A stretch of DNA of 32,584 nt, taken from contig WFZC01000157.1 in the NCBI GenBank assembly GCA_015489765.1, positions 1 through 32,584 on the forward strand, written 5' to 3'. Numbering within the stretch: position 1 is the stretch's first letter; each line of letters opens with the position of its first letter. A program made the translations under genes and the position numbers. The notes beneath the pieces are model-generated. The model did no database searches. It saw only the letters and a list, made by a program, of their open reading frames with translations, and was not told where the DNA came from. Positions 8,304 through 26,598 of this stretch are shown one piece after another. Origin of the DNA: Desulfobulbaceae bacterium. Its GTDB lineage: Bacteria; Desulfobacterota; Desulfobulbia; Desulfobulbales; Desulfobulbaceae.

Positions 8304-9431
8304 ATGAGATGGGATCGGGATTTTCTTCCATTACCAATGTTTCCGAAAAAGGGTATCCGTCATTATCTTCATGGCCTGGCTGCCGACCATGGCGGTATGG
8401 CCCTGTTGATGACCCTGGCTGCCATCAGCTTTCTTATTGCTGTTACCGTTGACCTGGCCACCAGCGTCAACCGTCAGATACAGGCTTCCCACGGACTGCG
8501 GGAGTCTGTGCGCATGGACGAGGCGCTTGTCTCCGGTCTGAATCTCGTCCGTGCCTCGTTGTTTGCCGATCAGCGGAAACAACACTTTGACACCCTGCTT
8601 GACGGGTGGAACACTCCTGATAAAGAGGCCCTGGCCAGCCTCTTTGCCGGCATGCAGCTCTCCATTCGCGTGCAGGACATGTCGGGCAGAATTCAGATCA
8701 ACAGTCTGGTGGCAGTCAGGAATAATCATCACAAACCGGGTCTGGGATCGGGGCGCCAACCCGGCTCCAGGGTTCCGGGACAGGTAAACGGCAAAGACTC
8801 TGAAAAATTACAGCGCGGGCTCTGGATTCGTTTTCTTCTCTCCGGAAAATTTAATGTTAACGGCCAACAGGAAGCCGAAGCCCTGATTGACGCCCTCAGC
8901 GATTGGCTGGATGAAGACGATACCGAGCGGGATCACGGGGCGGAAAGCGGCTATTATCAAACGCTCAAAACACCGTATGTCTGCAGGAATGGCCCATTAC
9001 AGTATCCGGAAGAGCTGCTGCTGGTTAAGGGCTTTACCCGAAAGCTGGTCTATGGGGACAAAGAACATGAAGGAATTATTGACTATTTGACAATTTATGG
9101 TCAGGATGGCAAGATAAATATAAACACCGCTCCTTCTCTCGTGTTGCAGGTGTTGGCCCCTGGAGTGGATGAAGACATGGTTGGTGCACTTGTTGCTTTC
9201 CGCAGGGAAAAAGAGAATCTCAGCGCCCTGAAGAATCCGCAATGGTACCGGCATGCTCCCGATTTTCCAGGTGATATTGTCTTTGATAATAACCTGGTCA
9301 CCACCATAAGTTCCTATTTTATGGTGACCATAACCGCGGATATCAACGGATTTGAGCAGACCGGCACAGGATTTCTATATCGGAACCCACAGACAAAGGA
9401 GCAGGATCTGTTGAGCTGGCGGGTGGATTGA
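8304..9431 (+). CDS. gspK: Type II secretion pseudopilin GspK
   Basis: At 375 residues this is the largest pseudopilin, which caps the pseudopilus tip. The leader ends HGG before MALLMTLAAISFLIAVTVDL. As is characteristic of GspK, no Glu stands at mature position 5. The alpha domain typical of GspK is present, with DALSDWLDEDDTERD and KININTAPSLVLQVLAPG, the helix-hairpin-helix-like NINTA motif. The ATG follows an AGGA ribosome-binding site eight bases away. The stop is 14 bases before the repeat element at 9446, which separates it from gspL. Confidence 0.95.
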   Translation: MRWDRDFLPLPMFPKKGIRHYLHGLAADHGGMALLMTLAAISFLIAVTVDLATSVNRQIQASHGLRESVRMDEALVSGLNLVRASLFADQRKQHFDTLLDGWNTPDKEALASLFAGMQLSIRVQDMSGRIQINSLVAVRNNHHKPGLGSGRQPGSRVPGQVNGKDSEKLQRGLWIRFLLSGKFNVNGQQEAEALIDALSDWLDEDDTERDHGAESGYYQTLKTPYVCRNGPLQYPEELLLVKGFTRKLVYGDKEHEGIIDYLTIYGQDGKININTAPSLVLQVLAPGVDEDMVGALVAFRREKENLSALKNPQWYRHAPDFPGDIVFDNNLVTTISSYFMVTITADINGFEQTGTGFLYRNPQTKEQDLLSWRVD

Positions 9432-9445
9432 ACCTGATGATTTCT

Positions 9446-9634
9446 GATGGCGTCGTAAAAACTTCGATCTACTGCGTCGTGTGTCCTGTGGCGACTCTCA
9501 ACATACTGCATGTATGGTTAAGACCCGCCACAGAACACTACTCCTCGGAGTCTACGCTTCGCTCCGCTTACCTGTATATCTGTGTTTTTACTTAGCCATC
9601 TTTAAGCATTGTCTGGACTTTTTACGAGTTCATC
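9446..9634 (+). repeat. MITE-like inverted-repeat element, copy B (best preserved)
   Basis: This 189 bp element begins GATGGCGTCGTAAAAA (9446-9461) and ends TTTTTACGAGTTCATC (9619-9634), imperfect terminal inverted repeats matching at 13 of 16 positions. ATTTCT flanks it on both sides (9440-9445 and 9635-9640), a 6 bp target-site duplication, so it appears to be a mobile insertion. Inner arms 9481-9493 and 9526-9538 form a strong hairpin (12 of 13 paired). It has no open frame of its own. It sits between gspK and gspL and ends 20 bases before the gspL start codon, so any transcript through the operon contains its hairpins. Confidence 0.9.
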
Positions 9635-9653
9635 ATTTCTGTTACTGGAAAAA

Positions 9654-11174
9654 ATGGCGAAACGAATACTCAGCCTTGATATACAGGAAGATCTGCTCTG
9701 CTCCGTTGTCGTTGAACAACGCGGGCCGGAGTTGCTTGTCCTTGCCTGTGCATCGCTAAGGATCGATGATTATGACGGGCTGTCAAGCGCCGTGACCGAC
9801 CTGCTTGCCCGGCTTGATGCCAGTGTTGACGGCTGTGTCATCGGGCTGCCACTTTCCGCGCTGAGTTTTCGCAACCTGACCCTTCCCTTTACCGACCGGA
9901 AAAAGTTGGCCCAGGTCTTGCCGCTGGAGCTTGAAGAACAGCTGCTGACCCCTGTTGACCAGCAGATCATTGATTTTGTTATCACCGGCAGAGAGGAGCA
10001 GGGAAGCAGGGTACTGGTGGCCGCAGTCGAAAAAGAGATGCTGGAGGCCTTTCTCCCCTTACTGGTGGACAATGGGTACCCGGTACAAACCCTTGCTGTT
10101 TCCCTTGAGCTCCTGGTACACCAATACATGGCCGCTGACCAGGTTCAGGATGGGCCGATCCTCTTTCTCCACGCTGGTTCCCATGCCCTGCACATGGCCT
10201 GGTGGGCGGATGGACAGGTTGTCTTTATGCGGAGAATAGCCTATCCAGAACCGGTTTTTACCACGCCCCCGGCCGGAAATGGAGAGATTGCCCTTACCGT
10301 TGATCGTAAAACGGCCGAGCAGTACATGCATGCGGTTTGCGAGCGCATTCGTGCATCTCTCTATTATGCGGGCGCAGGAGAGGAAGGTGCCAATACTCCG
10401 CGGCAGGTGGTACTTTCGGGATGTATTGCTGTTGCCGGGTCCTGGCAGTCATTTTTTGGCCATGAGCTTGCGTTGCCGGCGTTGAGCTGGGAGCCGATGC
10501 AGGGGGTGTCCGGACTGCGGCTTGCGGAACCGGTCCAGGGGAACTGGAATAACCGGCTCTATGGACCTGCCCTTTTTTTTGCTGTCAGTGGCCTGAAAAA
10601 ACAGAAAAAACGGACCGGGTTGAATTTCCTCAAGGGGGAGTTTGCCCCAGGGCCGATCGCTCTTTTTTCCAGACGCTCTTTAACGGCTATTGCGGCCGGT
10701 GTCGTCCTGGTTCTTCTTGTCGGTTCAGCCCTGTTATGGGCTGAATATCATAATCTTGATGTTCATGCCGCCAGGTTGCATAAACAAATGGTCAGTCTCT
10801 ATAAACAGACCTTTCCGGAGGCCACCAGAGTAAACCGTCCCTATCTACAGATGCAGTCCAGGCTGAAGGAGGTGCAGGGGACGGAAGTCGCATTGCCGCT
10901 GTTTTCAGGTGAAAAACGAGCGCTTACTCTCCTTGCCGATATTTCCAGCCGTATCCCCAAAGATGTCACCGTTCATGTTTCCCGGCTGGTTATTGACCGG
11001 GAAAGCGTGCAGATCAAGGGAGTTACCGATGCCTTTAACAATGTGGATGTGATAAAAAATACACTTGCCGCTTCTCCCCGCTATGGTGAGGTCAAGATCG
11101 TGTCAGCTGCCGCGGACAAGAAAAAGGGCAGGGTTCGTTTTGAAATCCATCTGCTCCTGGGCGAGGCCTCCTGA
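9654..11174 (+). CDS. gspL: Type II secretion assembly-platform protein GspL
   Basis: This 506-residue inner-membrane protein couples the GspE ATPase to the pseudopilus platform. The cytoplasmic N-terminal domain (about 1-330) is actin-like, starting MAKRILSLDIQEDLLCSVVV, with the GLPLSALSFRNLTLPF motif typical of GspL/PilM-like folds. A single membrane helix spans about 342-363, followed by a short coiled-coil and a ferredoxin-like periplasmic domain (LVIDRESVQIKGVTDAFNNVD). I chose the ATG at 9654 because homology begins there; upstream in-frame codons lie in the repeat element. The ribosome-binding site is weak (TGGAAAA). It overlaps gspM in a TGATG junction. Confidence 0.93.
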   Translation: MAKRILSLDIQEDLLCSVVVEQRGPELLVLACASLRIDDYDGLSSAVTDLLARLDASVDGCVIGLPLSALSFRNLTLPFTDRKKLAQVLPLELEEQLLTPVDQQIIDFVITGREEQGSRVLVAAVEKEMLEAFLPLLVDNGYPVQTLAVSLELLVHQYMAADQVQDGPILFLHAGSHALHMAWWADGQVVFMRRIAYPEPVFTTPPAGNGEIALTVDRKTAEQYMHAVCERIRASLYYAGAGEEGANTPRQVVLSGCIAVAGSWQSFFGHELALPALSWEPMQGVSGLRLAEPVQGNWNNRLYGPALFFAVSGLKKQKKRTGLNFLKGEFAPGPIALFSRRSLTAIAAGVVLVLLVGSALLWAEYHNLDVHAARLHKQMVSLYKQTFPEATRVNRPYLQMQSRLKEVQGTEVALPLFSGEKRALTLLADISSRIPKDVTVHVSRLVIDRESVQIKGVTDAFNNVDVIKNTLAASPRYGEVKIVSAAADKKKGRVRFEIHLLLGEAS

Positions 11175-11707
11175 TGGCACTGTCTAAACGGGACAAGACA
11201 ACCCTGTTGGCAGGAGCTGCTGTGCTGCTGGTTTTTGCCTTTGTCCAGTTCGTCGTCTTTCCTCTTATTGATAAACGAAAACGGCTCACTCGGGCTATCG
11301 CCACCAGGGAGCGGCAGCTCGTTGAAATGCAGGCCATGCAGCAAAAGTATGGACAACTGCATGCGCAGAGCAACAGCCTGGAGAAGCAGCTTGCAGCAAG
11401 GGCTAAAGGATTCAGTCTGTTTTCTTTTTTGGAAAAAATGGCGACCCGGAGCAAAATCAAGGACCATATCGCCTATATGAAGCCATCGTCCATGACCGGT
11501 GAGGGGAACCTGCGGCAGATCATGGTGGAGATGAAGCTGCAGGCCATTGGAATTCAGCAGCTTGTCGATTTTTTAAAATATATTGAATCACCAGAGAATA
11601 TTGTGACGGTGAAACGGATATCCATCCAGGAGAATAAAAAAATAGAGAAAAGTCTTGATGTGGTGATCCAGGTAATCAGTATCACCCGGGAGAATGGTCA
11701 TGGATGA
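11174..11707 (+). CDS. gspM: Type II secretion protein GspM
   Basis: This 177-residue bitopic inner-membrane protein binds GspL in the assembly platform. It has a short cytoplasmic start (MALSKRDKTTLL), one membrane helix (about 10-30), then a coiled-coil (KRKRLTRAIATRERQLVEMQ) and a small ferredoxin-like periplasmic domain (MVEMKLQAIGIQQLVDFLKY, then SPENIVTVKRISI). Its topology and its position after gspL support the call. The start overlaps the gspL stop; the end overlaps gspN by eight bases. Confidence 0.9.
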   Translation: MALSKRDKTTLLAGAAVLLVFAFVQFVVFPLIDKRKRLTRAIATRERQLVEMQAMQQKYGQLHAQSNSLEKQLAARAKGFSLFSFLEKMATRSKIKDHIAYMKPSSMTGEGNLRQIMVEMKLQAIGIQQLVDFLKYIESPENIVTVKRISIQENKKIEKSLDVVIQVISITRENGHG

Positions 11708-12653
11708 GCAGCAACAAAAGCGGCAGAGGGGTGCTGTGATGCACTGGTTGTTGTCTTCGCTTGGTTATCTGCTCTATACCCTGGTGGTGTTGGTTTGTCT
11801 GCTCTGGTGGAAATTTCCGGCCCGGACAATGAAAACCTGGCTGGAACATCGCTTGAACGCCGAAACATCAGGATATGCCTGGAATATTGAAAAGTTGAAA
11901 CTCGTATTGCCGGGGCGTATGCAGATAAGCAGTATAACGCTTTCCCCGGTGCAGGACAAGGTGCCATTGCTCAGGATCGGAGAACTTGATCTGGTTCCCG
12001 ACCCAATACTACTTTTCGGCAGGAACAAGCTGATCAGGTATCGCATGCAAATGTTTGGCGGTACTGCCGAAGGGAGTCTTGTTTCCGGTACATGGTTTCG
12101 ACAATTTGATTGCCGGGGAAAATTTTCCGGTCTCCAGATCCAGCGGATGACAGCCCTGCGTAAGAGTCTTCAACGCCAGATAAGCGGCGTTGCGGACGGC
12201 AGTTTTTCCTGGCATGGTGGCCGCAGGACCACGGAAAAACAGGTAATGGCCGGCAAGGTAATCATTCATGAGGGTATTGTACCTCTGAGAAAACCGGTTC
12301 TCGGACTGACGACACTGCCGTTTTCGACCATCGAAACCCTGTTTGCCTACGGAAAAGGGCAGTGGACCATTGAACAGGGGAAATTTGTGTCGCCAAAACT
12401 GACAGCTACCTTCAGCGGCCGGGTTGAACCGGCTGACAGGATATCCGATTTTCGTTTGCAGTTTACCGGCAGGCTGATACCCCGGTCGGAACTGTTTTCC
12501 GGCGGTAATAGCAGGATGGCCGGGATAATTCAGTCCTTTCTCAAGGACGGCAGCCTGCCCTTTACCCTCAGCGGCACCGCCGCTGAACCGGGCATTCATT
12601 TTGCAAATGGTTTGTCAGAGGCGATGAATCGTCTCCAGGGCAGGAGGAGGTAG
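11700..12653 (+). CDS. gspN: Type II secretion protein GspN
   Basis: This protein of about 317 residues has a single N-terminal membrane helix (about 15-40), followed by a beta-rich periplasmic domain with AsmA/GspN-like repeating strands (for example GTAEGSLVSGTWFRQFDCRGKF in spaced segments, and the late LPFTLSGTAAEPGIHFANG). GspN is an accessory subunit present in only some type II systems; its exact role is unclear. I prefer the ATG at 11700 to the one at 11694 because the GGGAGA ribosome-binding site (11688-11693) is then correctly spaced. It ends three bases before the gspC GTG start. Confidence 0.85.
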   Translation: MDEQQQKRQRGAVMHWLLSSLGYLLYTLVVLVCLLWWKFPARTMKTWLEHRLNAETSGYAWNIEKLKLVLPGRMQISSITLSPVQDKVPLLRIGELDLVPDPILLFGRNKLIRYRMQMFGGTAEGSLVSGTWFRQFDCRGKFSGLQIQRMTALRKSLQRQISGVADGSFSWHGGRRTTEKQVMAGKVIIHEGIVPLRKPVLGLTTLPFSTIETLFAYGKGQWTIEQGKFVSPKLTATFSGRVEPADRISDFRLQFTGRLIPRSELFSGGNSRMAGIIQSFLKDGSLPFTLSGTAAEPGIHFANGLSEAMNRLQGRRR

Positions 12654-12655
12654 GG

Positions 12656-13420
12656 GTGGTCCGTCATGCCATAACACTTGCCATGCTCTTTGTCCTCGTG
12701 TATGCGGGTGTTCACCTCTATTACGCCCGCCTGGAAAAGCGGCTGCTCGCCACCTCTGTGACGGTGGCGGAGCAGGCTGTAGTCTCTCCTGATTCCGGTC
12801 ACAAGCAGGTGAAAACATCTCCAGTCCTGCCGGCGCAGGGGAATGATTTCAGCGTCATTGTTGACCGGAATATCTTTGGGGCGGTTCTGGTCCAGGAGGC
12901 CGGGGCAAAGCAGACAGCCGTCCCTGAAATTAAGGAAGAGCCAAAGGAAACAACCCTTAAGCTGGTTCTTTTGGGAACCATCAGTGGTGATGAACGGGAC
13001 GCCCGGGCGATTATTGTTGACGAAAAGGAGAAGAAACAGGACCTTTATCAGGTCGGCGATGCCATCCAGGGGGCATTGATAACCGCCATTGAACGGGGTA
13101 AGGTGATTCTTGAATTTAACGGCAGAAAACAGTTTTTGCTCATCAAGGAGCGCAAGGGCGGTGACCATGAAGGCGCCCAGGGGGGCTTTATGCCGCAACC
13201 ACCCTCTTCCGGACTGGAACGAAGGGGATCCCCATTTCCCAGGAGCAACCTGGGAGTACCGGCGCCGGTTGTTCCCCATCGGCGGATAAGTTTCAGGCCT
13301 GGAAAGCCTGTCCAGCGGCCGAAACAGGAGAAAATCGGAACAGCGGCTGTTGAAGAAACTGTGCCGGCAGAAGATGCTCCGGAAGCGCTTGCGCCGGAGT
13401 TGGAAGAACTCAATAACTGA
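12656..13420 (+). CDS. gspC: Type II secretion inner-membrane/coupling protein GspC
   Basis: This 254-residue protein links the inner-membrane platform to the secretin. A membrane helix lies at about residues 5-22. The homology region (about 68-165) follows, with VDRNIFGAVL and LVLLGTISGDERDARAIIVDEK, classic for GspC/PilP-type HR domains. Instead of a PDZ or coiled-coil end it has a Pro/Arg-rich disordered tail (about 165-254), rich in Glu near the end. The start is GTG at 12656, eight bases after a strong AGGAGG site. The 112-base gap to gspD is the longest gap in the second half of the operon. Confidence 0.88.
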   Translation: MVRHAITLAMLFVLVYAGVHLYYARLEKRLLATSVTVAEQAVVSPDSGHKQVKTSPVLPAQGNDFSVIVDRNIFGAVLVQEAGAKQTAVPEIKEEPKETTLKLVLLGTISGDERDARAIIVDEKEKKQDLYQVGDAIQGALITAIERGKVILEFNGRKQFLLIKERKGGDHEGAQGGFMPQPPSSGLERRGSPFPRSNLGVPAPVVPHRRISFRPGKPVQRPKQEKIGTAAVEETVPAEDAPEALAPELEELNN

Positions 13421-13532
13421 TGGACTGCCAGGCTGTTTACGGACAGCTCTTTCGTCATCGCCGGAATTTATCTTTTTTATGGGCATTCCGGGATAGAGAA
13501 CAGAAAAAACGATCATACTCGGGGTAAGGAAT

Positions 13533-15785
13533 GTGCGTTTAATGCGTGTGAGATCATACAGTGTACTATTTTTTTGCCTGTCGGTACTTCTCTGGATGGC
13601 CGGGCCAACATATGCGTCCCGGCCCGGGACCGTACAGCCGCGGACATCATCGTCGCAACGATATGTCACCATTGATTTCAATGATGTGGATATCAATCTG
13701 TTCATCAAATATATCAGTGAGTTGACAAAAAAGAATTTTGTCGTTGACCGGGCAGTCCGGGGCAAGGTGACCATTATTTCGCCAACCAGGATATCCGAGG
13801 AGGATGCCTACAAGGTCTTTGAATCGGTCTTGGAGGTGAATGGCTTTACCACGGTCCCCAGCGGGGCGATAATCAAGATTGTTCCGGCGGTACAGGCGCG
13901 ATCCAAGGCCATTGCCACCATTCGCAGGCCGGGCGTCCAGTATCCGGAGGACAAGGTCGTTACCCAGATAATTAAACTGACCAATGCTGATCCCCGTGAA
14001 GTGAAAAAGATCCTGGCCCCCCTGGTTTCCAAGACCAGTGTGGTCATTTCCCATCCGGAATCGGGCATCCTGATCATTACCGACGTCCAGTCCAATATCG
14101 AACGGCTCCAGGAAATCATCAAGGCCATCGATGTTCCCTCAATTGGCGAGGAGGTCGCGGTCCTGCCCCTGAAATACGCATCTGCCTCGGCGGTGGGAAA
14201 ATCCATAAGCCGTCTTTTTCAAAATGTGGTGAAAAAAGGTTCGCGTCGTCAGACCATCCGCGTCATTCCCTATGAGCGGACCAATTCGCTCATTGTTTTT
14301 GCCCCCAGACCCCAGATTGCCAAGATCAAACATCTTCTTGCCCGGCTCGATACGGAAATTCCCCGGGGCGAGGGCGATATCCATGTCTATTACCTGCAGA
14401 ATGGTGATGCCGAGGAAATGGTCAAGGTGCTGGCCAACCTGCCGGAAAAAAAGACCGGTGCAAAGAAAGTCCGCACCAAGGCCCCGTCAATCTCCGACCA
14501 GGTAAAGATCACCGCCGACAAGGAAACCAACTCGCTTATCATTACCGCTCCGCGCGAAGAGTACATGGCCCTTGAAGACGTCATCAAAAAACTGGATATC
14601 CCGAGACGCATGGTCTATCTCGAGGCCCTGATCATGGAGGTCTCGGCGGACAAGTCTTTTGAGGTTGGCGTGCAGTGGGGCGGGGCCGGTGATTTTGATG
14701 ATAACACCGGCAAGGTGGCTGCCGGTTTCAGCGGCAATCAGCCCAGGCCCTATGACGTGCTCAACGGGTTAAAGGAGACACCACCGGTCCTGCCGGCCGG
14801 ATTTACCTTCGGTGTCTTGAAACAGGGTATTAAAATCGGCAATGTGGTTTTTCCCAATCTCGGGGCCGTTCTCAAGGCATTCCGAAAGGATTCCGACATC
14901 AATATCGTGGCCACCCCGCAGATCCTGACCATGGACAACAAGAAGGCCACCATTGTTGTCGGTGAGAACGTGCCGTACATCACCAGCCAGAATACCACCA
15001 CCGCCCGCCAGGACTATACGAACTACGAGTACAAGGACGTGGCGACCACCCTGGAGATCACTCCCCAGATCAATCACTTCGATGTACTCAGGCTTGAGAT
15101 TATGGCCGAGGTGATCAAACTGAAAAATCCCAATGATGTCAGTGGCACACCAACCACCTTCAAGCGCAAGGCCGACACCACTGTGGTCGTGCATAACAAT
15201 GAGACCGTTGTTATCGGCGGCATCATCGGCCAGGACGCCTCTTCCAGTGAGTTCAAGGTGCCGCTGCTTGGTGATATACCCCTGCTCGGTTGGCTGTTTA
15301 AAACTCGGACAACTTTTCATAAAAAAACCAACCTCTACATCTTTATCACCCCCAAAATTGTCGATAATCCCGCGGAACTGGCCTCCATTTATTACAAGAA
15401 GCGGGATGTGATGGAGGATGTCAAAAAGGGGTCCAGTGTCATTGTGGATGACCAGTTGAACAAGACTCCTAACCCGCGGCACGCCATGGAGCTGACCAAT
15501 CTCGGTTTTGCAAAACTGCGTAACAGGGAAAATGGCAGGGCCAGGGAATATTTTGAAGAGGCCCTGAAAATCGATCCGAAAAACCCCTATGCCCTGGTTA
15601 ATCTCGGGGTTGCCTGTGAGCGCCAGGGTGACAGGGAGCGGGCGGCGAAGCTCTATGGTAAGGTGTTGCGCCTTGAAACCGGCGCAAATATCGAAGGTGG
15701 CAATTCCGCTTTGGAATCATTGAAAAAAATTGCCAGGGAAAACCTGGATCAATTACGGAACACCCACAAGAAGTCCAAGGAATAA
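13533..15785 (+). CDS. gspD: Type II secretion secretin GspD with C-terminal TPR domain
   Basis: This 750-residue outer-membrane secretin is the channel through which folded substrates leave. It has a signal peptide (about 1-29) and an N0 domain (FNDVDINLFIKYISELTKKNF). Three N1-N3 repeats follow, with the Asn/Arg-rich ERTNSLIVFAP and KETNSLIITAPREEY signatures. The secretin core has VPYITSQNTTTARQDY, then TTLEITPQIN, VVIGGIIGQD and VPLLGDIPLLGWLF. An unusual tail from about residue 645 contains two TPR-like repeats (AMELTNLGFAKLRNRENGRA, then YALVNLGVACERQGDRERAA) where many GspD proteins have an S-domain. The start could be GTG 13533 or ATG 13542; neither is ideally spaced from AAGGA. Confidence 0.95.
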   Translation: MRLMRVRSYSVLFFCLSVLLWMAGPTYASRPGTVQPRTSSSQRYVTIDFNDVDINLFIKYISELTKKNFVVDRAVRGKVTIISPTRISEEDAYKVFESVLEVNGFTTVPSGAIIKIVPAVQARSKAIATIRRPGVQYPEDKVVTQIIKLTNADPREVKKILAPLVSKTSVVISHPESGILIITDVQSNIERLQEIIKAIDVPSIGEEVAVLPLKYASASAVGKSISRLFQNVVKKGSRRQTIRVIPYERTNSLIVFAPRPQIAKIKHLLARLDTEIPRGEGDIHVYYLQNGDAEEMVKVLANLPEKKTGAKKVRTKAPSISDQVKITADKETNSLIITAPREEYMALEDVIKKLDIPRRMVYLEALIMEVSADKSFEVGVQWGGAGDFDDNTGKVAAGFSGNQPRPYDVLNGLKETPPVLPAGFTFGVLKQGIKIGNVVFPNLGAVLKAFRKDSDINIVATPQILTMDNKKATIVVGENVPYITSQNTTTARQDYTNYEYKDVATTLEITPQINHFDVLRLEIMAEVIKLKNPNDVSGTPTTFKRKADTTVVVHNNETVVIGGIIGQDASSSEFKVPLLGDIPLLGWLFKTRTTFHKKTNLYIFITPKIVDNPAELASIYYKKRDVMEDVKKGSSVIVDDQLNKTPNPRHAMELTNLGFAKLRNRENGRAREYFEEALKIDPKNPYALVNLGVACERQGDRERAAKLYGKVLRLETGANIEGGNSALESLKKIARENLDQLRNTHKKSKE

Positions 15786-15797
15786 TATCCCGTATTT

Positions 15798-17489
15798 ATG
15801 AAGCATCTCGGAGAAATTCTTGTCGAACAGTTCGGGGTTGAGCCCGGCGATATTGAAGACGCCTTGTCTCTGCAGGAGGACAATGGCCGTCGTCTCGGCG
15901 AGATGCTGGTCGGGCAGAAAAAGATCAGCGAGGAAGACCTGCTCAGGGCCCGTTCCATTCAATCGGGCATGGAACTGCGAACCAGGCTGCCGACCGAGCC
16001 GGATCCCTTTTTCATTGACCGGGTTGCCATCGGTTTTTTGAAAAAGTATATGATGATCCCGGTGGCAACGCCGGACGAGTGTTTTATTGCCATGGCCGAG
16101 CCCCACTATTTTCAGCAGCTTGACGATCTGACCAGGACCCTGCAGTGGGACGGCATCAAGACTGTTCTGGCGCCGCAGGAAGAGATCTTTGTCGCCATTA
16201 ACTCCGCCTATGATTCGGGCAGTCGGGATGCGGCTGACCAGGTTCTGCAGGATATCGACGAAGAAGACCCCGAGTCCATCCTTTCGGAAATCGAGGAAAC
16301 AGCAGACCTGCTCGATGACACCAGCGATGCCCCGGTCATCAAACTGGTCAATCTGGTCCTTTCCCAGGCCGTGCGGGACAATGCCAGTGATATCCATATC
16401 GAGCCCTATAAAGACCGGGTCAAGATCCGCAAGCGGGTCGACGGCATTCTTTATGATATGTACTCCCCGCCCAAGCATGTTCAGTCCCGGCTGATTTCAC
16501 GCATCAAGATCATGGCCAGGATGGATATTGCCGAAAAAAGGCTGCCCCAGGACGGACGGATTGAAATCCGGATTGCCGACAAGAATATTGATCTCCGGGT
16601 GTCAACGCTGCCCACGGCATTCGGTGAGCGGGTGGTCATGCGTCTTCTCGACAAACCGGCGGTCCTGCTCGATCTGGAGAGTCTGGGCATGACCAAGACG
16701 GACCTGGCCCGGTTCCGCCAGTTGATCAAGGCGCCCTACGGCATTATTCTGGTCACCGGTCCCACCGGCAGCGGCAAGACAACCACCCTCTATTCGGCGC
16801 TTTCCATCCTCAATCAACCCGGCATAAATATTATTACCGTCGAGGACCCCATCGAGTACCAGATCAACGGCATCAGTCAGATGCAGGTCAACACCAAGAT
16901 CGGCCTGACCTTTGCAAATGGACTGCGCACCATAGTTCGTCAGGACCCCGATATTATTCTGGTCGGTGAAATCCGCGATCTGGAAACCGCTGAAATCGCC
17001 ATTCAGTCCGCCCTCACCGGCCACCTGGTTTTTTCCACCCTGCACACCAATGATTCCGCTTCCGCCGTGACCCGGCTCATCGATATGGGGCTGGAGCCAT
17101 TTCTGGTCTCCTCGTCGGTAAATGCTATCCTGGCCCAGCGCCTGGTGCGTAAAATCTGCCCCCACTGTCGAGATTCCTACAAGCCGGACCAGGAATACCT
17201 GGCCCGGGTGGGGCTGTCTCCTATCAAGTTCGGCGACCGGGTGCTCTACCATGGGCATGGATGCCCGGAATGCATGGGAACCGGATACAAAGGGCGAATA
17301 GCCCTTTTCGAGTTGATGGTATTAAACGATACCCTCAAAAGCCTTATTCTGACCACCTCGGATGCCGGCCAGCTCAAGAGGCAGGCCCTGGCCTCGCTGG
17401 CCTCGGGAATGCGCACCTTGCGCCAGGACGGCCTGCGCAAGGTGCTGGCCGGGCTGACCACCCTGGAAGAGGTGTTTCGCGTTACCTGA
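15798..17489 (+). CDS. gspE: Type II secretion ATPase GspE
   Basis: This 563-residue cytoplasmic hexameric ATPase powers pseudopilus assembly. The N-terminal part is an MshEN-like domain (MKHLGEILVEQFGVEPGDIE, and GRRLGEMLVGQKKISEEDLL). The catalytic domain has Walker A GPTGSGKT (321-328), an Asp box and Walker B region (DPDIILVGEIRD, from about 383), a His box (VFSTLHTND), and the tetracysteine zinc site Cys454/457/489/492 that marks GspE/PilB ATPases. It follows gspD by 12 bases and is convergent with gspF, ending 59 bases from it. Confidence 0.97.
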   Translation: MKHLGEILVEQFGVEPGDIEDALSLQEDNGRRLGEMLVGQKKISEEDLLRARSIQSGMELRTRLPTEPDPFFIDRVAIGFLKKYMMIPVATPDECFIAMAEPHYFQQLDDLTRTLQWDGIKTVLAPQEEIFVAINSAYDSGSRDAADQVLQDIDEEDPESILSEIEETADLLDDTSDAPVIKLVNLVLSQAVRDNASDIHIEPYKDRVKIRKRVDGILYDMYSPPKHVQSRLISRIKIMARMDIAEKRLPQDGRIEIRIADKNIDLRVSTLPTAFGERVVMRLLDKPAVLLDLESLGMTKTDLARFRQLIKAPYGIILVTGPTGSGKTTTLYSALSILNQPGINIITVEDPIEYQINGISQMQVNTKIGLTFANGLRTIVRQDPDIILVGEIRDLETAEIAIQSALTGHLVFSTLHTNDSASAVTRLIDMGLEPFLVSSSVNAILAQRLVRKICPHCRDSYKPDQEYLARVGLSPIKFGDRVLYHGHGCPECMGTGYKGRIALFELMVLNDTLKSLILTTSDAGQLKRQALASLASGMRTLRQDGLRKVLAGLTTLEEVFRVT

Positions 17490-17548
17490 GCGCGCCTTCA
17501 GCGGCGCCTGCATGGGCTGTTAACAGGATGATCAGATCAGCTATGGAG

Positions 17549-18775
17549 TTACCTGATCAGCTGGTTCATCTCAAAGATGGGCAGGAGAATGGAGATGACG
17601 ATGAAGGCCACGACCAGGCCCATGCCCAGGATCATGATCGGCTCTATCATCGAGGTCAGGGCAAGGATCTTTGCCTCGATCTCCTTTTCGTAGCTCGTTG
17701 CCGCTTTGTCCAGCATCTTTTCAAGGGCGCCACTCTGTTCACCCACGGCTATCATCTGAACAAGCATGGGGGGGAACCATTTGCTTTCCCGCAGGATATC
17801 AGAGAGACTCTTTCCCTTTTCCAGTTCAAGGGCGGCATCGTCGATCACCTCGGCTATCAGGGTGTTGTTGAGGATATTTTTGACTATGCCAAGCGAGGTA
17901 AACAGGGGAACACCGGCATGGAGCAGACTGGAGAGGGTCCTGCTGAATCTGGCCGAGGCGATCTTGATGTTGATATCACGTAGGCCCGGAAGAGTCAGCT
18001 TCATCCGGTCCCAGAGTCGGCGTCCCTTTGGTCGACTCAGCGCATAACGCAGACCGATGACAAGGATGGCAGCCAGCAGGAGAATCAGCCACCAGTAATG
18101 GGCAAGCATGGTACTCAGGCTGATGAGGAAGACCGTTGGCAGCGGCAGCGCCTGTTTGGAGCCTGCGAACACCTTGGTAATTTTAGGAATAATAACGGTG
18201 ATCAGGGTAAATAATACGCCAACGCCGATACATCCCATAAAGATCGGATAGATAAGGGCGGCGGTGATACGGGACTTCAGCGCCTGCTGGTTCTCGCCAA
18301 AGTCAGCCAGCCGTTCCAGGACAACGTCTAAGGAACCCGAAGCCTCCCCAGCCTGAACCATGTTGATATAAATCTTTGAAAAAATACGCGGATGCTCGGA
18401 AAGGGCGGTGGTCAGGGAATGCCCTTCGTTCACCTGGTCTTTTATCTGGGCGATAATAGTGCGAAAGGTGGGATTGGTGGTCTGTTCTATGAGACCGTTT
18501 AAAGCGGGCACCAGCGGAATACCGGCGCCAAGCAGGGTGGCCAGTTGACGGGTGGCGACATGGACCTCCTGCTGTTTGACGTGGCCGCCCAGCCGTACAA
18601 CCGATAGATTTTTCTTCTTTCCCTTTGTATTGCCGGAAAGGGTTTCCCTGATGTCAACGGGATAGTTGCCTGCCTGCCGAATTTTCTGTCTGGCGCCGGT
18701 CCGTGAATCCGCCTCGATTATCCCTTTCAGTTTTTTTCCAGCCGGATTCAGGGCCGTGTATTCATAAACAGGCAT
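17549..18775 (-). CDS. gspF: Type II secretion inner-membrane platform protein GspF
   Basis: This 408-residue polytopic membrane protein is the platform core that contacts GspE. It starts MPVYEYTALNPAGKKLKGII, the standard GspF opening. Two T2SSF domains follow (TRQLATLLGAGIPLVPAL at about 77, and RFSRTLSSLLHAGVPLFTSL at about 272) with three membrane helices (about 170-195, 222-245, 377-400). It lies on the opposite strand, convergent with gspE, so it needs its own promoter in the 200-base gap shared with the selenoprotein gene at 18980. Its sequence is intact, so the flip does not look like decay. No obvious ribosome-binding site precedes the ATG. Confidence 0.96.
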   Translation of the reverse strand: MPVYEYTALNPAGKKLKGIIEADSRTGARQKIRQAGNYPVDIRETLSGNTKGKKKNLSVVRLGGHVKQQEVHVATRQLATLLGAGIPLVPALNGLIEQTTNPTFRTIIAQIKDQVNEGHSLTTALSEHPRIFSKIYINMVQAGEASGSLDVVLERLADFGENQQALKSRITAALIYPIFMGCIGVGVLFTLITVIIPKITKVFAGSKQALPLPTVFLISLSTMLAHYWWLILLLAAILVIGLRYALSRPKGRRLWDRMKLTLPGLRDINIKIASARFSRTLSSLLHAGVPLFTSLGIVKNILNNTLIAEVIDDAALELEKGKSLSDILRESKWFPPMLVQMIAVGEQSGALEKMLDKAATSYEKEIEAKILALTSMIEPIMILGMGLVVAFIVISILLPIFEMNQLIR

Positions 18776-25046: not shown

Positions 25047-25616
25047 TTACTGGATTAGACGATAGGGGTAAGCCCGTTTTGTCCAGGTGCTTTCCGGATA
25101 TGCCTTGCTTAAATGCTCGTAGGCCTCTTTAAGAGGTCCTGGGTTACCACTGCTCTTGTAACGTGCGACCCCTGTTTGAAACAGGGCCTCGGGCGCGGCA
25201 TCACTGTCCGCATGGTCAGCAATAATTTTGGCGTAATGATCAAGAGCCTTGGTGAAGTCATCCTGGTGAAAATACATATTGCCGATACCTAACAGCAGCC
25301 AGGGAATAAATTGATCTGGGGCAAAGAAACCAACGGTTGCCTGGTGCGTACGGCCTTCCCGGTCAAGAATAAAAAGGGCCGGTGTCCATGTTACACCGTA
25401 TTTGCCGGCCAATGGTTGCTGATCTGAGGGAATCCGCAAGGGAACCAGGTTTTGGTTGATAAAGGTGGTGACTGCATCATCGGGATACGTAACTGCATCC
25501 ATCTGTTGGCAGCCAATTCAATTTGGATTGAAAAAGTCGAGTAAAATTGCTTTGTTTTCTGTTTGCGCCCGATCAATGGCCTGTTCCAAATCCGTCAGCC
25601 ATTCGATTGCTGTCAT
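25047..25616 (-). CDS. Thioredoxin-fold selenoprotein (UxxC) with C-terminal TPR-like domain
   Basis: Starting at ATG 25616, preceded by an ideal AGGAGG site seven bases away, and reading UGA (25520-25518) as selenocysteine gives 189 residues. The active-site strand KAILLDFFNPN runs straight into Sec33-Ile-Gly-Cys36, where thioredoxins have CxxC. The cis-proline motif follows (WTPALFILD, Pro79), then a helical TPR-like tail (about 106-189; ALDHYAKIIADHADSDAAPE, ending TKRAYPYRLIQ). A SECIS-type hairpin follows the UGA. It is likely a thiol-disulfide or peroxide reductase; there is no signal peptide, so it acts in the cytoplasm. If the UGA is taken as a stop, only the part from Met39 on, without the active site, would be called. 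The alternative of a nonsense-mutated gene is less likely because the codon falls exactly on the catalytic position. Confidence 0.92.
25483..25520 (-). promoter_or_regulatory. Bacterial SECIS-like hairpin after the UxxC UGA
   Basis: On the minus strand the UGA is at 25520-25518. GGATGC (25500-25495) pairs with GTATCC (25488-25483) in six pairs, one of them G-U, with loop AGTTAC. G is the second loop base, and the loop begins 24 bases after the UGA, fitting the bacterial SECIS pattern and closely matching the geometry at 19010-19043. Confidence 0.75.
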
Positions 25617-25665
25617 GGTTGAACCTCCTGTTGGTAAGGTTTGAAAGTCCTGTTTGTTAAACAAC

Positions 25666-26144: not shown

Positions 26145-26399
26145 ATGCATGATAAACAGGAACTGTGTTCAAAGATTGTGGATATGTACCCGGAGATCGG
26201 GCAGTGCGGAATTGATGTCAGGGTCGATTGGAATGAGGGAAAAAATGCCTGGGTTGTCGATCTGGCAAAAGGCAATCATCAACTCAGGCATTACCTGGAG
26301 AACCCGGATGCCGAGAGCTGCATGGAAGGTAAACAGTGCGTTTCCTTGGGGCTCGAGATCGCCCAGCTTGTCAACAATGTCAAAGGTGAGCAATACTGA
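26145..26399 (+). CDS. Conserved-looking 84-residue protein of unknown function
   Basis: The ATG at 26145 follows a strong AGGAGG site six bases away, so the shorter of two in-frame starts is used. The 84-residue product (MHDKQELCSKIVDMYPEIGQ at the start) is soluble, mildly acidic and mixed alpha/beta, with four cysteines (in ELCSK, GQCGID, ESCMEGKQC). Phrases such as CMEGKQCVSLGLEIAQL give the impression of a conserved small protein, but I cannot assign a family or function. The cysteines may bind a metal or be redox-active. It is flanked by two copies of the dispersed repeat. Confidence 0.8.
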   Translation: MHDKQELCSKIVDMYPEIGQCGIDVRVDWNEGKNAWVVDLAKGNHQLRHYLENPDAESCMEGKQCVSLGLEIAQLVNNVKGEQY

Positions 26400-26412
26400 G
26401 TCATCCAATACT

Positions 26413-26532
26413 GATGGCGTCGTAAAAACTTCGATTTACTGCGTCGTGTGTCCCGGGGCGATTCGCAGGCATACTACCTGTATAGTTGAGACTCCCCACA
26501 GGACACAGCTCCTTGGAGTCTGCACTTACTTG
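26413..26532 (+). repeat. MITE-like element, copy D (right end missing)
   Basis: It begins GATGGCGTCGTAAAAACTTC, identical to copy B for the first 20 bases and beyond, and follows that copy to about 26532 (GGAGTCTGCACTTACTTGT), where similarity stops. The right terminal repeat and about 60 bases are absent. The left flank is AATACT, the same six bases that follow copy A. It lies between the small protein gene and the 3' end of the CxxC thioredoxin gene. Confidence 0.8.
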
Positions 26533-26598
26533 TTCTGATCAGGCGGGACACGATGGCAGGTTCAAAAAATGTTGGCCAGTACCCCGGTCGGGAAATAT

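Follow-up and report, generated by a model that had tools for sequence, protein, structure and literature searches.

Does a single in-frame TGA in a short gene on the minus strand of a Desulfobulbaceae contig (WFZC01000157.1 of assembly GCA_015489765.1) end translation, or does it encode selenocysteine (Sec) in the active site of a thioredoxin-like (Trx) protein? We addressed this question within the 32,584-nucleotide stretch analysed (hereafter the window) and by comparison with related genomes. A mechanical ORF call at this locus gives a 151-residue protein (25502-25047) that begins at Met39 of the longer frame and does not include the catalytic motif. The first-pass annotation had described this frame as starting past the active site without a ribosome-binding site, and had argued that automatic annotation would lose the catalytic motif. 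The ORF listed for the window does begin after the active site, and no Shine-Dalgarno-like stretch was found in the bases before Met39. The start proposed in its place, 25616 behind an ideal AGGAGG, was found as described, and a GGAGG-like stretch precedes the equivalent start in most relatives. From this start the frame runs for 189 codons with one in-frame TGA, at codon 33, and is open thereafter to the TAA at 25049-25047.

25047 to 25616, minus strand: putative selenoprotein gene, 189 aa, Trx domain (UIGC) plus TPR, stop TAA; with TGA read as Sec it matches relatives over the full length
25624 to 25629, minus strand: Shine-Dalgarno sequence AGGAGG, 7 nt before the ATG at 25616
25518 to 25520, minus strand: UGA codon 33, predicted Sec, first residue of UxxC (from the codon counts of relatives and the alignment with PDB entry 2kuc)

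Codon 33 among relatives

A relative of the gene is found in 71 of the 258 genomes of the same order, and codon 33 is TGA in 68 of the 70 sequences read and TGT in the other 2. In a sample of the phylum, a profile search at 1e-15 gave a match in 100 of 395 genomes, some of the matches being short paralogues. After the loci were read, codon 33 of 129 relatives was TGA in 116, Cys in 11 and something else in 2, and was never TAA or TAG. The TGA forms are spread over 36 family-level groups and all 116 keep the second Cys (+3); the motif is UIGC in 104. Variation between Sec and Cys at residue 33 of homologs, which the first-pass annotation had proposed as a check, is thus what was found, and the stops at differing places that it had named as contrary evidence were not seen, relatives having TGA or Cys at the same codon. 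Its term Geobacter-like is imprecise, the nearest named relatives being Desulfobulbaceae/Desulfocapsa. A conserved in-frame UGA with Cys homologues is the pattern of a bacterial selenoprotein, and the comparison supports both recoding of UGA-33 as Sec and the earlier reading of the gene as a selenoprotein. For a protein widespread in Desulfobacterota, an ordinary start-to-stop ORF call would then miss the catalytic residue. An alternative genetic code was considered and rejected: many relatives terminate this same gene with TGA, and a tRNA-Sec is present.

The mechanical call at 25502 could also mean that Met39 is the true start, the upstream reading being a remnant or leader and the UGA an ordinary stop. 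Such a start would not predict selection on the 32 codons that precede the UGA, yet these give dN/dS values of 0.05-0.35 (eight pairs), indicative of purifying selection, and a mean conservation of 0.61, equal to that of the tail, with Trp6 invariant among relatives. It would also leave translation without a ribosome-binding site, cause the active site to vanish in more than 100 relatives and sit poorly with a TGA for which TAA or TAG is never substituted. We consider initiation at Met39 very improbable.

The hairpin downstream of the UGA

25483 to 25500, minus strand: predicted bacterial SECIS core, stem GGATGC/GTATCC, apical loop AGTTAC (from the fold and from pairing across relatives)

The arms of the stem are GGATGC (25500-25495) and GTATCC (25488-25483). 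The six-pair hairpin with loop AGTTAC reported earlier is present; the 24 bases given as its distance from the UGA apply to the loop, which starts at the 24th base, whereas the stem starts 17 nt past the UGA. The folding energy of a 53-nt segment is -18.1 kcal/mol (z = -3.07), and 0 of 200 shuffles were as stable. The published bSECIS model calls for a loop of 3-9 nt, a stem of 4-16 bp, G in the first two loop positions, a distance of 16-37 nt from the UGA and an MFE of at most -7.5 kcal/mol (PMC13188914). Here the loop AGUUAC has 6 nt with G second, the stem has 6 bp, the UGA-to-loop distance is 23 nt and the MFE of the 42-nt hairpin segment is -8.9 kcal/mol. An Rfam search of the window gave no match.

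In 68 sequences from the order, 97.5% of stem cells are paired; sliding the partners lowers this to 17-65%. Within the order most of the variation is one-sided and covariation is accordingly modest (3 cells); across the phylum the predicted stem covaries, with the pairing-preserving variants GGGTGC/GTACCC, GGAAGC/GTTTCC, TGGTGC/GTACCA and GAATAC/GTATTC. In codon counts that leave out three rows and draw on sequences that are not phylogenetically independent, ACG encodes Thr at +10 in 59 of 59 cases (25% in the rest of these genes), GTT encodes Val at +9 in 59 of 64 (37% background), and at Pro -2 all four codons are in use. In three within-genus pairs pS under the hairpin is 0.00-0.11 against 0.26-0.43. 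By these sequence measures the putative hairpin overrides codon choice, and the synonymous sites beneath it appear frozen. In the two Cys forms of the order the hairpin is either lost (genome G140) or keeps its six pairs with a changed loop and a different minimum-energy fold (G128).

Selenocysteine machinery and exchange with cysteine

Absence of the Sec machinery had been named as a further ground for doubt, and it does not apply: the genome from which the window derives encodes SelA (634 bits), SelB (373), SelD (367) and a tRNA-Sec(UCA) that scores 72 bits in Rfam and on which ARAGORN agrees. The SelD gene of this genome (L112) is itself read through a TGA and has a strong hairpin after it. 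Within the order, 64 of the 71 carriers of the gene pass a strict SelB threshold; of the 7 below it, six have SelA and the other is a draft genome of 60% completeness. The presence of SelB alone proves little because 215 of the 258 order genomes have it in any case.

Well-supported branches of the tree force at least four Sec/Cys changes. The Cys-for-Sec members found among Sec forms are L085 (G128), L088 (G140), L143 (G534) and L144 (G271). In family f41, SelA was not detectable in the 98%-complete genome G534, which carries a Cys form, whereas the sister G430 has SelA and keeps the UGA. Other Cys forms are found alongside the Sec trait, G271 having SelA and G128 and G140 having SelB, so the exchange seems possible without loss of the trait. 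Such repeated natural exchanges, one of them without detectable SelA, could help in studying why Sec is retained. A separate branch, f72 (L145-L153), has degenerate active sites such as CxGS and EEGS, and SelA was not detectable in three of the seven f72 genomes; this branch is possibly a redox-dead Trx-TPR offshoot.

The first-pass annotation had called the gene the second selenoprotein of the window. A quick scan of the window that covered only UGA sites with a nearby Cys gave no other convincing selenoprotein, the candidates looking like chance frames.

Domain architecture

25296 to 25604, minus strand: Thioredoxin_2/7 (DsbD-gamma-like) domain, residues 5-107 (PF13098, 1e-11; PF13899, 5e-9)
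25203 to 25295, minus strand: TPR_6 repeat, residues 108-138 (PF13174, E = 3.7e-7)

The TPR-like tail noted earlier on the thioredoxin was recovered as the TPR_6 match and extends beyond it to residue 189, the family profile matching CpoB/YbgF TPRs over residues 113-184. In conservation the tail equals the Trx domain, and its residues E143, G149, W178 and P184 are invariant. Against the PDB, the family profile matches 2kuc (3e-13) together with DsbD C-terminal domains. The sequence around the UGA reads LLDFFNPN-U-IGC, and the claim that the UGA sits just after LLDFFNPN, where the first Cys of CxxC belongs, is borne out by the 2kuc alignment, which places position 33 on the first Cys and position 36 on the second. 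Residues 77-79, an invariant WTP, fall at the YP of 2kuc, making Pro79 the expected cis-Pro. These profile comparisons support a Trx-TPR arrangement; an AlphaFold2 model built from four sequences was poor (pLDDT 50). No signal peptide was evident by eye, and the protein would be cytosolic.

Relation to known families

In NCBIfam 20.0 no model reaches its cut-off for this protein, and TsoB, Trx_VPGUxxT and trx7_PDZ give at most 34.6 bits against cut-offs of 275-805. The Trx7/PDZ and VPGUxxT families (NF041199, NF041382, NF041383) are likewise thioredoxin-like selenoproteins, but the matches are weak (17-20 bits against cut-offs of 275-350) and their motifs are CxxU or VPGU. UxxC thioredoxin-like families are numerous in a 2026 catalogue of prokaryotic selenoproteins, which nowhere refers to TPR (PMC13188914). 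One of its entries, a thiol:disulfide interchange protein (PF13098, UxxC, WP_011366075.1; PMC13188914), may overlap with the present family, the best Pfam match being the same. Separately, deep-Sep has examined Desulfosediminicola ganghwensis (PMC12013277).

The family could be that already catalogued protein of 2004 rather than a new one. The motif class and best Pfam domain agree, our protein having a PF13098 domain with UxxC, and the 2006 survey recorded the Sec form from Syntrophus and two Geobacter species (PMC1794560), all at the time placed, like the present relatives, in the Deltaproteobacteria as then defined. For the catalogued protein, no TPR fusion is mentioned. The lack of an NCBIfam model at cut-off also speaks against identity, and an assignment of our group f21 (22 draft genomes, none complete) to Geobacteraceae was not supported. 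We regard identity with the catalogued protein as unlikely. The family adds a thioredoxin-TPR architecture that usually carries Sec and seldom Cys, and an NCBIfam-type model and read-through annotation could come directly from it.

The combination of an N-terminal Trx domain with C-terminal TPRs is shared with the chaperedoxin CnoX/YbbN (PMC6282202), and in Caulobacter CnoX acts both as a reductase recycled by TrxR and as a holdase (PMC6282202). However, CnoX carries SXXC or WCGPC and no Sec, whereas the present protein has NPxUIGC, a DsbD-gamma-like Trx domain and a short TPR tail of ~80 aa. The classical thioredoxin domain of CnoX falls just short here (PF00085, 22.8 against a cut-off of 23.5), PF13098 and PF13899 both being above gathering, and CnoX was not among the 60 PDB matches listed. 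Among solved structures, the Trx domain is closest in sequence to the DsbD gamma domain and the 2kuc disulfide isomerase, which are without TPR or Sec. DsbD, to which the gamma domain belongs, is an exported membrane protein.

Gene neighbourhood and proposed function

In the window the gene is followed by a trypsin-like gene and flanked on its other side by a divergent 84-aa protein. An operon with the trypsin-like gene was considered and rejected, the arrangement not being common to relatives.

26145 to 26399, plus strand: divergent 84-aa Cys-containing protein, family unknown, near the gene in many relatives

This protein, which has no Pfam or NCBIfam match, often lies near the selenoprotein gene on either strand and has conserved Cys residues. 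It was rejected as an obligate partner, being present in 126 of the 258 order genomes against 71 for the selenoprotein gene. An ORF out of frame with it (26149-26538, plus strand) is probably spurious.

Among relatives, the gene directly downstream encodes desulfoferrodoxin (superoxide reductase) in 5 genomes of 3 families, rubrerythrin is nearby in 6 genomes of 4 families, and an EncFtn-like ferritin is nearby in 6 genomes, in 5 of them just upstream. A TrxR-like flavoprotein (TIGR01292, 122 bits, under the cut-off) is directly downstream in 9 genomes and confined to families f4 and f7. Such oxidative-stress neighbours occur in a minority of loci and are absent from the window itself. It is on these neighbours of relatives that the proposed role, a cytosolic Sec-dependent disulfide reductase in oxidative defence, perhaps chaperedoxin-like, is based. 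The best explanation, and one that we hold to be highly probable, is a SECIS-dependent Sec thioredoxin-TPR protein acting as a cytosolic reductase in an oxidative-stress setting in anaerobes.

According to this proposal SelB, with Sec-tRNA-Sec(UCA), would read UGA-33 with the aid of the SECIS hairpin 17 nt downstream, and the inserted Sec would be the nucleophile of the UIGC thioredoxin motif. The Sec33/Cys36 pair could then serve as a fast thiol-disulfide reductase: Sec33 would attack a disulfide or sulfenate of the substrate, and Cys36 would resolve the selenenylsulfide. Recharging might be by a thioredoxin-reductase-type flavoprotein such as that encoded directly downstream in several relatives, and the TPR tail may dock client or partner proteins, as in CnoX. 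A likely setting would be repair of oxygen or peroxide damage in anaerobes, beside desulfoferrodoxin and rubrerythrin-type proteins. The direction of the reaction (reduction), the TrxR partner, the TPR function and the location are all presumptive.

The protein might also be a selenoprotein that is simply a generic thioredoxin-type reductase, its TPR serving for stabilization or dimerization, with no chaperone or stress role. The DsbD-gamma/Thioredoxin_2-like character of the Trx domain and the lack of an adjacent stress gene in the window are consistent with this. Against it stand the recurrence of desulfoferrodoxin, rubrerythrin and EncFtn-like genes near the gene in several families, and a tail conserved like the Trx domain; we find it less likely than not. 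The fuller form of the stress-related reading is an uncatalogued, phylum-wide Sec chaperedoxin (UxxC Trx plus TPR) that helps anaerobes to defend themselves against oxygen by linking the reduction of disulfides to the docking of clients, with Sec the main form and several independent shifts to Cys. We put this forward tentatively, at a little under an even chance.

In several families a zinc-finger-like small protein (CPxCxGxK...GTCxC...EWRGTQ...CPTCxGTG) recurs downstream of the gene, within about 1 kb of it (L091, L092, L093 and others). Elsewhere in the window, 8304-18775 holds a type II secretion cluster (GspK, L, D, E and F), the secretin of which (13533-15785) has a C-terminal TPR stretch at residues 654-714.
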